Source: Nitratireductor sp. (GTDB lineage: Bacteria > Pseudomonadota > Alphaproteobacteria > Rhizobiales > Rhizobiaceae). Taken from it: a stretch of DNA of 54,361 nt. The stretch's first letter is position 1, and each line of letters starts with the position of its first letter. This document shows positions 43,816 through 46,627 of the stretch, piece by piece. Position numbers and translations under genes: made by a program. Location: positions 1 to 54,361 of the forward strand of contig JAGRLT010000013.1 in assembly GCA_020441665.1 (NCBI GenBank), in the 5' to 3' direction. Below the pieces are notes generated by a model, which was given only the letters and a program-made list of their open reading frames with translations, searched no databases and had not been told where the DNA came from.

Positions 43816-44544
43816 CTACTGGATCGATGCGGTGGTGAGGGGATCGATGCCCGGCGCGTCGCCATAGGCGGGAACGGTCTCGATCGGATGGCCGGCGACC
43901 AGCATGGGATAGGCGGTGAGCTGGCCGATAATGCGGTTATGCACCTTGGCGAAATCGCCGAGCCCCACATGGGTGGTGGTATATTTGAACTCGGTGTGCA
44001 GGGTGACGTTGTTGCCCTTGGTCAGCCGCACTTTCGAGCCGATGCAACCGGGGATGCGGCAGATGAAATTGTCGACGCGATGGACGTTGGGCGGAATGGC
44101 GGCGAGCACCGGACCGTCGAGCACACCGAGATAATTGACCGGAATGCCCTCGCTGTAGAGTTCCGCGGCAAGCGAGGTCACGATATTGCCGCCATAGCTG
44201 ATGCCGACCAGATTGATCTGGACGCTGGGATCGCGGGCGAATTCACGGCGGATCTCCGACAGAACCAGCGGCTGGACGACCAGACGCCCCTCGACCGGTG
44301 TCGCGTAGCTGTAGTGTTTCGCATCCCCCAGTTTCGCCTTGAGATTGGCAAAGCCGTAGCCGATGAAGGGCATGACGCTGGCCAGTCCATTGACCAGATA
44401 GGTGCGGTGGTTCTGCGGAACCGGATGGGTTCCCTGTCCGAAATAGGCCTGCTGGCTCATGGCCGGAGTGGCTGACACGGCCATCAGTACCGCAAGAGCG
44501 GCGCCGACAAGGCCATCGCGAAGCGCTGTGCGTAGGGTCATCAT
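43816..44544 (-). CDS. Secreted lipase-like alpha/beta-fold protein
   Basis: The 242-residue protein has a clear signal peptide (LVGAALAVLMAVSATPAMS-Q). A GISYGG motif with the presumed nucleophile Ser follows INLVG. GVLDGPV, RVDNFICRIPGCIGSKV with a Cys pair, and HTEFKYTTTHVGL containing a possible catalytic His come later. It looks like an exported lipase or esterase, but the family is not one I can name. The ATG at 44544 has GGGGACG ahead of it; ATG at 44541 or 44568 are alternatives. Confidence 0.7.
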   Translation of the reverse strand: MMTLRTALRDGLVGAALAVLMAVSATPAMSQQAYFGQGTHPVPQNHRTYLVNGLASVMPFIGYGFANLKAKLGDAKHYSYATPVEGRLVVQPLVLSEIRREFARDPSVQINLVGISYGGNIVTSLAAELYSEGIPVNYLGVLDGPVLAAIPPNVHRVDNFICRIPGCIGSKVRLTKGNNVTLHTEFKYTTTHVGLGDFAKVHNRIIGQLTAYPMLVAGHPIETVPAYGDAPGIDPLTTASIQ

Positions 44545-44749
44545 TACTCGTCCCCGTTTCCGTAACATGCTTAAGGAACCGCAAATTGGTTAAGGCGCTG
44601 CTCAGGAAGATGGTAAATTACCGGTAAATGACGGGGACTATTCGGGGCAGGTCGAGGAGCACGGCGATCCGACCACGCCGGGGGCACGGCAATTTGACTT
44701 GCACTTGACGGCAAAGCACCCCACATTCACGGGGTAACCGCAACAATCG

Positions 44750-44763
44750 AAAGGAGGTGATCC
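44750..44763 (+). promoter_or_regulatory. Extended Shine-Dalgarno AAAGGAGGTGATCC
   Basis: All 14 bases are complementary to the 3' end of 16S rRNA (GGAUCACCUCCUUU). The GGAGG core is 7 bases from a GTG at 44765, the ideal spacing. A full-length match of this kind is rare in front of bacterial genes. Confidence 0.75.
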
Positions 44764-44764
44764 A

Positions 44765-44842
44765 GTGTCGAGTGAAATCAGGTTTGCGCATGGATCGGTG
44801 CAACAGGATGATCGTCGGAGCAGCCTCCGGGAAGAATCGTAA
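44765..44842 (+). CDS. Candidate 25-residue peptide ORF
   Basis: A GTG-started ORF of 25 codons plus TAA lies exactly 7 bases after the extended Shine-Dalgarno. The product begins MSSEIRFAHGSVQQDD and ends RRSSLREES; it is hydrophilic with no membrane segment. Past the stop, two competing hairpins (GTTGC-GCAAC at 44843-44857; CCATCCG-CGGATGG at 44847-44877) are followed by a strong terminator at 44906. No plus-strand gene lies downstream within reach, so this is not an obvious leader. It is either a small-protein mRNA or a dual-function small RNA. The ribosome site is strong evidence; the peptide is unrecognised. Confidence 0.5.
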   Translation: MSSEIRFAHGSVQQDDRRSSLREES

Positions 44843-44905
44843 GTTGCCATCCGCAACGGAAGATCCCTAACGGATGGGTCCGATCCAGCGGAAAATGAAT
44901 TCACG

Positions 44906-44933
44906 AGGCCGCCTGTTCTGCAGGCGGCCTTTT
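44906..44933 (+). terminator. Rho-independent terminator of the small transcript
   Basis: AGGCCGCCTG (44906-44915) and CAGGCGGCCT (44921-44930) form a 10-bp stem with a 5-base loop followed by TTTG. It defines the 3' end of the sORF transcript. Confidence 0.8.
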
Positions 44934-44996
44934 GCATGCCTGGCCCGGGCTGTCTCGACATTCAGCGCTGGATGAGGGAAATTTGACCGGCCCCCG

Positions 44997-45150
44997 AAAG
45001 CAACAATGCCTGCCGGGGGAGGAGGTCCGGCAGGCATCGTTAGGTCAGGAGCATCATGGGAGGAGGAATGCTGCTCCCTGATCAATCGCGGCATGGGAGG
45101 AGGATATGCCTGCAATTGTCACGAACGTAACGCAAAACAGTTAACGTTTC
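44997..45150 (-). ncRNA. Cuckoo/alpha-r14-type sRNA with three CCUCCUCCC loops
   Basis: Read on the minus strand, three successive hairpins each show CCTCCTCCC in the loop. H1 45090-45110 has stem GGCAT/ATGCC, H2 45048-45077 has a 10-bp stem with one mismatch, and H3 45006-45037 has an 11-bp stem ATGCCTGCCGG/CCGGCAGGCAT followed by TTGTTGCTTT and acts as terminator. Exposed anti-Shine-Dalgarno CCUCCUCCC loops define the alphaproteobacterial cuckoo RNAs (alpha-r14 in Sinorhizobium, CcsR in Rhodobacter). A CTATAT -10-like box at about 45159-45164 (minus) suggests a 5' end near 45150; the exact start is a guess. Confidence 0.8.
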
Positions 45151-45226
45151 GTTGACTTCTATATAGGTAGGCGACCCACATTGAAGCAGCGCCTTTTCGG
45201 AATAGTAGTCATGCATCTACTGCATG

Positions 45227-45276
45227 GCTGTGAAACCTGCGGGCCATAGAAGCTGTGAAACCTGCGGGCCATAGAA
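45227..45276. repeat. 25-bp perfect tandem duplication
   Basis: The unit starting GCTGTGAAACCTGCGGGCC occurs at 45227-45251 and immediately again at 45252-45276. It lies between the tadG-like stop and the sRNA promoter region. No coding frame uses it. Confidence 0.85.
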
Positions 45277-45285
45277 AATGCAGAC

Positions 45286-45310
45286 GGGGAGGCCTGCATG
45301 CAGCCTCCCC
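45286..45310 (-). terminator. Probable terminator downstream of the TadG-like gene
   Basis: GGGGAGGC (45286-45293) and GCCTCCCC (45303-45310) form an 8-bp stem with a 9-base loop. On the minus strand a TTTT follows after 6 bases. It is 36 bases past the stop at 45347. Confidence 0.5.
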
Positions 45311-45346
45311 TGCGATCCAGCCTGAAGTCACGCCAGTGGGGATTGT

Positions 45347-46627
45347 CTACCGTGTCAGGTGGAGCGATTTGATATCGACGGCGATGCTCTGGAAGATCAT
45401 CGCCAGTTCCTCCGCATTGCTGGCTTCGAAGTAGAAGTTGTGACCATCCTTTGCCGGCGTCGCACATTCCTTGAGGGTAGCCTGCGCCGATCTGGGCGCA
45501 TCGAAGGCGATCGTATAGATGGTGATGCCGTCGCGGCCGCGCTTTTCCTTCTTCATGTCCTTGCACAGGTTGAGCGCGAGCTGGTTCGAGCGCTTGGCCT
45601 GGCCACCCTGGGGGTCGTCGCGAACGCCCTGGAAATAGGTATTGAACTCGCCATCGGTCATCAGGATGACGATCTTGCGCGTGTTGGAATCGTAGTCTTC
45701 CGGCTCCGAGCCCGTCGGCCAGAACTTTTTCCACTTGTCCGACAGCATGTAATAGCCCCAGGCAATGCCCGAATGGCCGGCGGTGAAGCCGTTCGCCCGC
45801 AGGTCGGCGATGTCGGACAGCAGGTTGTCGCGATTGCCGGTGAGCGGTTCGATTTCACTGTTGGAACAATCGGCGCGGCGGTCGGCGCCAACGGGTTCGC
45901 TCTGGAACGACAGATCGGCGGCCGGGTTGAGCTTGCGCTCCGTCATGCAGGTGCGGTTTGCCTTTCCGCTCGCCTTCTCGGCCAGGTCGTCCGGCAGGCG
46001 GACGCCTTCCGAATAGGGGACGAGCCCGACGCGGACGTTCGAATGGTTCCTGTTTTCGGGCAGCAGCACGTCGATGGCACCAGCGGCGGCCTGTTTGAGG
46101 GAATCGAGCTTGCCGTTCGAGTTCATCGAGCCGGTAACGTCGAGCACCATGGAGATTTCCACCGGTGCGCTGGAAAAGGTCGCGGCGGAAGCGACGCCGA
46201 GATTAAGCGACGGAATGCCGGCAAGGCCGAGAAAGGCGGTTTCCATATCAGCCTTCAGCGAGGCTTCGACATCGCCGGTCAGGGGGTCGATCTCGAGCGA
46301 GTCGATCTGCGTCGCTGCGGCGAGTTGAGGATGGCTGGTCAGATTGGCGAAGAGGTGATCCTCGAAAATCTTGCGCAGTTTCTGCTGCCGGTTTTCGCCG
46401 TCCGCCAATTCGTGGCCGGCTGCCAGAATGGCCGAATCGAGCGAAGCCGCCATCAGCGATCGCGCCCGGCTCGCCTGGCTGTAGTCGAAGGCCGCGCCGG
46501 CCGAAAGCATCAGGGTGATTGCCGTCACGCCGAAGATCGGTGCAAAGGCACCGCTCCGATTGTTGGCGAACCGGATCGTGTTCCGGGCGAGGCCGTCTTT
46601 CAGTTTGCGGGCGAATTGGCTGAGCAT
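45347..46627 (-). CDS. TadG-like pilus/vWA domain protein
   Basis: The 426-residue protein has an N-terminal TadE/TadG-like part: NRSGAFAPIFGVTAITLMLSAGAAFDYSQA, one membrane segment preceded by basic residues. A von Willebrand factor A domain from about residue 155 has the MIDAS-like VLDVTGSMNSNGKL and later IVILMTDGEFNTY. It is probably membrane-anchored with the vWA domain outside the cytoplasm. A GGAG site fixes the ATG at 46627. No tad/flp cluster is next to it, so it is an orphan copy; several such orphans are usual in rhizobia. Confidence 0.86.
   Translation of the reverse strand: MLSQFARKLKDGLARNTIRFANNRSGAFAPIFGVTAITLMLSAGAAFDYSQASRARSLMAASLDSAILAAGHELADGENRQQKLRKIFEDHLFANLTSHPQLAAATQIDSLEIDPLTGDVEASLKADMETAFLGLAGIPSLNLGVASAATFSSAPVEISMVLDVTGSMNSNGKLDSLKQAAAGAIDVLLPENRNHSNVRVGLVPYSEGVRLPDDLAEKASGKANRTCMTERKLNPAADLSFQSEPVGADRRADCSNSEIEPLTGNRDNLLSDIADLRANGFTAGHSGIAWGYYMLSDKWKKFWPTGSEPEDYDSNTRKIVILMTDGEFNTYFQGVRDDPQGGQAKRSNQLALNLCKDMKKEKRGRDGITIYTIAFDAPRSAQATLKECATPAKDGHNFYFEASNAEELAMIFQSIAVDIKSLHLTR

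Follow-up and report, generated by a model that had tools for sequence, protein, structure and literature searches.

The minus strand of the analysed stretch of DNA (54,361 bases in length, called the window in the following) very probably carries a stand-alone gene for an NfeR1-type ar14 RNA, which has its own sigma-70-type promoter, is probably activated by LsrB, presents redundant loops able to block Shine-Dalgarno sequences, and has ntrB as a plausible target. The element has the appearance of a genuine small regulatory RNA. Its family is a known one, detected by a routine Rfam scan, and the RNA is mostly ordinary, except for an unusual, conserved control element at its start.

Fold and family of the element

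An earlier note on this DNA had described three consecutive minus-strand hairpins, each with CCTCCTCCC in the loop and the last one serving as terminator. Exact matches and the predicted fold confirm this description. In the window, with both strands counted, CCTCCTCCC occurs exactly three times, always inside the ar14 element; shuffled windows contain on average 0.64 copies. The region 45170-44980 folds with -77.4 kcal/mol in comparison to -50.5 +/- 4.1 kcal/mol for shuffled sequences (z -6.6), and none of 200 shuffles is as good. In the predicted 154-nt transcript the bases of the motif are unpaired with a probability of at least 0.99 in hairpins 1 and 3 and of at least 0.91 in hairpin 2. 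The parts of the element are:

45001..45154, minus strand: predicted ar14 transcript, its start (about 45154) placed by the -10 box and its end by the terminator hairpin
45083..45118, minus strand: hairpin 1, loop CCTCCTCCC at 45095-45103 (fold; Rfam alignment)
45045..45081, minus strand: hairpin 2, loop CCTCCTCCC at 45058-45066 (fold, with an alternative; Rfam alignment; stem covariation in relatives)
45001..45042, minus strand: hairpin 3 and terminator, loop CCTCCTCCC at 45017-45025 (fold; covariation; weak U-tract)

Hairpin 2 is less secure than the others, because a GGGAG in its own 5' arm can pair with its own loop. The form in which motif 2 is hidden is the minimum-energy form in 45170-44980, a stretch which runs beyond the terminator, and in the isolated 37-nt fragment of hairpin 2 the two forms are about equal (-11.1 vs -11.0). 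The 11-bp terminator stem reported earlier is present, and comprises 16 bp in the fold, but the U-tract (TTGTTGCTTT) is weak. A simple terminator scan, which considers only loops of 3-8 nt, does not list hairpin 3.

A scan with 4227 Rfam families assigns positions 45001-45123 of the minus strand to ar14 (RF02344), from model position 1 to 123 and with 87.1 bits (gathering score 58.8). This covariance-model scan had been proposed as a check of the earlier assignment to the ar14/cuckoo RNAs, and with an end-to-end match above the gathering score and with covarying stems 2 and 3 the assignment is supported. As expected for ar14, there are three hairpins with CCUCCUCCC loops, the last of them a terminator, and in hairpins 2 and 3 compensated stems are combined with a fixed loop motif. 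In an alignment of 57 copies with at least 80 bits (A4, the window copy among them), 19 of the 21 predicted pairs are changed on both sides with pairing kept in at least one sequence, which means that stem changes in relatives are compensated. All 19 doubly changed pairs fall in hairpins 2 and 3; hairpin 1 is absent from the consensus structure because its columns are misaligned.

When copies are folded singly, 93 out of 105 leave three or more CUCC[U/C] groups accessible. This set comprises the window copy and 104 rows of the ar14 search, and omits all rows below 48 bits as well as G021:C1:3462764 (51.8 bits); the fetched loci L117, L120 and L121 were left unused. Three redundant CCUCCUCCC motifs are described as a feature of NfeR1, and identical loops three times in one transcript as the hallmark of ar14 (PMC10746234, excerpt). 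Because three identical loops define ar14, the window copy is a routine member of this family and not a surprise.

Promoter elements and predicted action

The following elements lie around and upstream of the predicted start:

45161..45166, minus strand: CTATAT, -10 box of a sigma-70-type promoter in which no -35 can be recognised
45211..45224, minus strand: LsrB/VtlR-like activator box TGCA-N6-GCAT, an exact match to the reported NfeR1 promoter motif
45124..45160, minus strand: conserved start region and 5' leader (identity among genus copies)
45140..45155, minus strand: TCAA-N7-TTAAC, a putative CtrA-like motif which covers the predicted start of transcription (motif search)

As in NfeR1-type genes, an LsrB-like box (45224-45211) is found upstream of a CTATAT -10 box (45166-45161); TGCA-N6-GCAT is given as the LsrB motif of NfeR1 promoters (PMC10746234, excerpt). 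Exact copies of the box are present in three out of seven stand-alone genus copies, and a related palindrome (at least 10 of 14 positions) lies 104-107 nt upstream in six of the seven. The stand-alone copy of G003 has neither such a palindrome nor a TATAT box. Over all genomes, seven copies combine a palindrome of at least 10 positions with a perfect CTATAT downstream. The distance between the two is 60-61 nt in six of these copies, which come from five genera, and 166 in the seventh. Unlike this spacing, the distance from the -10 box to hairpin 1 varies among the six. Palindromes of at least 12 of 14 positions occur in 8 of 105 copies, in comparison to none of 104 reversed sequences and a single one of 2080 shuffles (the palindrome listing gives the best 32 of the 105 copies). 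The palindrome of the window copy has 11 of 14 positions. At least as many are seen in two of the 104 reversed sequences and in nine of the 2080 shuffles.

A sigma-70 consensus scan of 44500-45400 finds no promoter, and in place of the NfeR1-type -35 hexamer (CTTAGAC, N17) the best candidate is CGCTGC with a spacing of 19. The poor -35 and the empty scan fit a dependence on an activator, but do not prove it. The NtrC motif TGC-N11-GCA is absent from 45346-45100; for NfeR1 promoters the authors suggest that this motif is restricted to plant symbionts (PMC10746234, excerpt). Judged by its sequence, the window copy resembles NfeR1 in the LsrB-like box, the CTATAT -10 box at near-constant spacing and the conserved synteny. 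Just 5' of the LsrB-like box, at 45227-45276, we observed two 25-nt units, perfectly identical and arranged head to tail.

From the sequence, predicted structure, family, synteny, promoter-like elements and a suitable site before a putative ntrB, we infer transcription, activation by LsrB and repression of targets in the following way. The RNA would be transcribed from its own sigma-70-type promoter without a good -35, and the LysR-type activator LsrB/VtlR, acting at 45211-45224, would probably be needed. Each of the three hairpins would keep CCUCCUCCC single-stranded, and each loop could base-pair with Shine-Dalgarno sequences rich in purines, of the length of GGGAGG or more. Such pairing would silence many mRNAs at the level of translation, the three loops being redundant, and ntrB would be a plausible target, as it is in Sinorhizobium meliloti. 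NfeR1 is reported to be activated by LsrB and to silence ntrBC, and in the NfeR1 model any of the three redundant anti-Shine-Dalgarno loops pairs at the ribosome-binding site of a target, ntrB included (PMC10746234, excerpt).

The ntrC gene is recognised with 676.7 bits to TIGR01818 (cut-off 558.6). The ORF directly upstream, which is ntrB by position only, has the start region ATCGGGAGGGCGGC-ATG with a GGGAGGG site. For a 15-nt loop oligo a short match to this start with -16.2 kcal/mol is calculated. The ATCGGGAGGGCGGC site before the putative ntrB is consistent with an NfeR1 target. A strict search of the same genome for GGGAGGAGG-N3-9-ATG gives four sites vs none in the control: they precede an ORF of 143 aa that begins like a signal peptide, a hydrophobic ORF of 219 aa, which we take to be CcmB-like, an ORF of two codons and a doubtful one of 159 aa. 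Four sites are not sufficient to outline a regulon.

Copy types and the start region

At E <= 0.01 ar14 is found in 46 of the 61 genomes and above the cut-off in 37 (the genome of the window is counted in both). All seven genomes of the genus harbour ar14, six of them in two copies; the copy G006:C26 is below the cut-off (54.6 bits). The two ar14 copies in the genome of the window are the stand-alone gene described above and a gene linked to DUF1127.

The start region of the stand-alone copies is well kept. Positions 45160-45124 are identical to G001, G004 and G005 in 30 of 37 positions, the upstream spacer in 14-18 of 41. For the same three relatives the values are 23/42 for hairpin 1, 16-17/37 for hairpin 2 and 38-39/44 for hairpin 3, which is the only part better kept than the start region. 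In the other genus copies the start region is identical in 26/37 (G002), 23/37 (G006) and 16/37 (G003) positions. The conserved start region with its CtrA-like motif is possibly new: in a literature search, outside of which some key papers on the ar14 family fell, neither this start-site element nor the convergent mini-ORF treated below was found described.

It is possible, although we consider it doubtful, that the stand-alone copy of this genus has a second layer of control, namely a CtrA-like operator placed over the start, through which the RNA would be tied to the cell cycle. Within the last 60 nt upstream, TNAA-N7-TTAA is present in all seven stand-alone genus copies and in none of the 98 others (0/6 DUF1127-linked genus copies and 0/92 other copies). 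The 16-nt core is identical in 13-15 of 16 positions in five relatives, and for a stalked budding bacterium ChIP-seq gave the CtrA consensus TTAA-N7-TTAAC (PMC7200025, excerpt). However, we use the CtrA name as a hypothesis, because the first half-site is imperfect in six of the seven copies (TCAA or TAAA, with TTAA in G006 only), because the seven genomes are related and the counts therefore not independent, and because the match in G003 is weak (7/16 core positions identical). Moreover, in a 120-nt search an AT-rich copy from outside the genus (G032:C1:1670537) has two TTAA-N7-TTAA, 76 and 80 nt upstream. Another regulator, or a role at the RNA level, would fit equally well.

We also considered the leader as a fourth RNA hairpin. 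It folds as a hairpin from the window sequence alone, and in an alignment of six of the seven stand-alone genus copies (A2, G003 omitted) its covariation term is unfavourable (+0.86), with a double change in 2 of 13 pairs. We rejected this candidate, and because of the unfavourable covariation a DNA element is likelier than an RNA hairpin. The leader motif as a genome-wide box was rejected as well. The 14-mer AACGAAACGTTAAC is found in four of seven genus genomes, in each only at the ar14 locus, and with one mismatch it has 9 hits in total vs 24 for the reversed pattern.

The earlier note had also named CcsR as a match, and that part of its assignment does not hold. It is very unlikely that the RNA in the window is of the CcsR/CIN1 type, that is, a product of RNase E cleavage in the 3' UTR of a preceding mRNA, made together with a DUF1127 RNA-binding protein as in Rhodobacter. 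The arrangement of a DUF1127 gene plus RNA is called CIN1 and is known from ccaF1-CcsR of Rhodobacter (PMC10253847, excerpt). The CCUCCUCCC motif is shared, and the second ar14 copy of the genome (G000:C109:2847-2971, 84.9 bits; L048:2638-2971) begins 44 nt after a DUF1127 ORF of 54 residues (61.3 bits, Pfam). The five other genus members that have two copies show the same linkage for the second one, in four by pattern and in G002:C70, which the pattern missed, by translation and Pfam (46.5 bits). This CIN1-type placement is found for G000:C109, but not for the window copy: the 800 nt 5' of it gave no DUF1127-like ORF, and its locus no tandem ar14 copy. The CcsR1 model (RF02791) gives only 20.1 bits against a cut-off of 65.3. 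The window copy further has its own -10 and activator-like boxes, and behind the VWA gene upstream there is a terminator-like hairpin (45299-45278), a type of site of which shuffles contain 0.8 on average. We therefore rejected membership in RF02791 and keep the reading of a stand-alone ar14 gene.

The stand-alone copy of G001 (L151:3448-3529) has a CcsR1 match of 41.5 bits, below the cut-off of 65.3; the sequence spaces of the two models, ar14 and CcsR1, thus overlap. Tandem arrays were seen elsewhere: G026:C23 and G033:C45 each have four ar14 matches behind one DUF1127-like ORF, and G029:C12 has five listed matches in tandem, two of them overlapping and some below the cut-off.

The stand-alone gene lies between two genes which served as synteny anchors:

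45347..46627, minus strand: upstream neighbour, TadE/G-like protein with VWA domain (Pfam)
43816..44568, minus strand: downstream neighbour, conserved protein, no Pfam match

Beyond the downstream neighbour a GNAT acetyltransferase gene and then a NUDIX gene follow, the latter presumably RppH-like. The gene order is kept in the six other genus members, with the exception that G003 has no match to the VWA gene. When genome contigs were scanned with the VWA protein, no relatives came up. For the downstream gene, relatives are encoded at eight loci, of which five, all from the same genus, have ar14; the loci L155, L156 and L157 have none at E <= 0.001. That the three motifs are chance pyrimidine repeats in non-functional intergenic DNA, or that the upstream gene simply has its terminator here, is a reading of negligible probability. 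In its favour, 5 of 100 shuffled windows reach three or more motifs, anywhere in the window. The full-length covariance match, the fold, the compensated stems and the genus-wide synteny speak against it, and the covariation by itself already contradicts it.

The convergent mini-ORF and comparison with known systems

On the opposite strand, a separate gene is convergent to ar14:

44741..44930, plus strand: CC2171-like transcript (RF01867, 34.6 bits, below the gathering score of 75)
44749-44764, plus strand: extended Shine-Dalgarno sequence GAAAGGAGGTGATCCA, 5' of the 25-codon ORF
44765-44842, plus strand: 25-codon ORF within the CC2171-like transcript

We take GAAAGGAGGTGATCCA to be the complement of the 16S 3' tail. 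The only copy of the pattern in the genome is the site in the window. With at most one mismatch, GAAAGGAGGTGATCCAGTGTC is found in 19 of the 61 genomes, once per genome, and in 10 of the 11 one-mismatch cases the difference is a start codon changed from GTG to ATG. The ORF behind GAAAGGAGGTGATCCAGTGTC has 23-30 codons in 19 of 19 cases vs 11.3% of 3800 shuffles. CC2171 is recognised at E <= 0.01 in seven out of 10 such loci, above the cut-off only at L163 (93.6 bits). For the peptide of the window and two relatives there is no Pfam or NCBIfam match. A further alignment, A3, comprises four of seven homologues. A literature search on CC2171 gave no result. The conserved ORFs of 23-30 codons and the alternation of ATG and GTG suggest that CC2171, which Rfam lists as an "sRNA" family, is in part a small mRNA and not solely non-coding RNA.

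According to the coordinates, the mini-ORF is convergent with ar14 in six of the seven genus genomes. In the other 13 genomes with the pattern no listed ar14 is nearby: in 12 it is on another contig or there is no match, and in G028 the two are 2.5 Mb apart. We also considered the convergent transcript as a sponge. Inspection shows pairing only between AGGAGG and CCUCCU (6 nt), and because this is far below the match to the 16S tail the idea is not favoured.

Taken together with the start region, this would describe an NfeR1-type RNA which in this genus is under a second, genus-specific regulator, perhaps CtrA, acting via an operator over the start, and which is also convergent with a tiny ORF whose Shine-Dalgarno sequence nearly mirrors the 16S tail. 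We regard this combined proposal as unlikely. If it were true, nutrient sensing (LsrB) and the state of the cell cycle would be joined in one global translation-silencing RNA.

As we read the stand-alone NfeR1-type gene, the range of a known global riboregulator includes a little-studied genus of the Hyphomicrobiales. The gene also allows two coexisting ar14 types to be separated, the stand-alone gene with an LsrB box and the DUF1127-linked gene. The start region with its CtrA-like motif leads to a concrete hypothesis on the rewiring of anti-Shine-Dalgarno RNAs.

Three known systems can be compared. AbcR1 and AbcR2 (ar15) are likewise trans-acting RNAs of the anti-Shine-Dalgarno type, and AbcR1 is likewise activated by LsrB (PMC8844928, excerpt). 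Unlike the RNA in the window, they carry two distinct anti-Shine-Dalgarno motifs, and at the gathering threshold the window contains no match to the AbcR-type Rfam families. The RNAs CcsR1-4 of Rhodobacter sphaeroides (RF02791), which share the CIN1 locus with ccaF1, have the CCUCCUCCC loop and the anti-Shine-Dalgarno logic in common with the window RNA. These RNAs are processed from a DUF1127 operon under RpoHI/RpoHII (PMC10253847, excerpt); the window copy differs from them in having no DUF1127 partner, whereas the G000:C109 copy has the CcsR arrangement.

The closest comparison is NfeR1 of Sinorhizobium meliloti, a trans-acting, Hfq-independent RNA and the founding member of ar14 (PMC10746234, excerpt). 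Unlike NfeR1, the window copy has a CtrA-like motif over its predicted start, lacks TGC-N11-GCA and has no recognisable -35; its predicted 5' leader is about 31 nt longer than the ar14 family model. In common with NfeR1 are the three hairpins with identical CCUCCUCCC loops, the stand-alone gene, the CTATAT -10 box, the LsrB-type box TGCA-N6-GCAT at a similar distance from the start, and ntrB as a candidate target.
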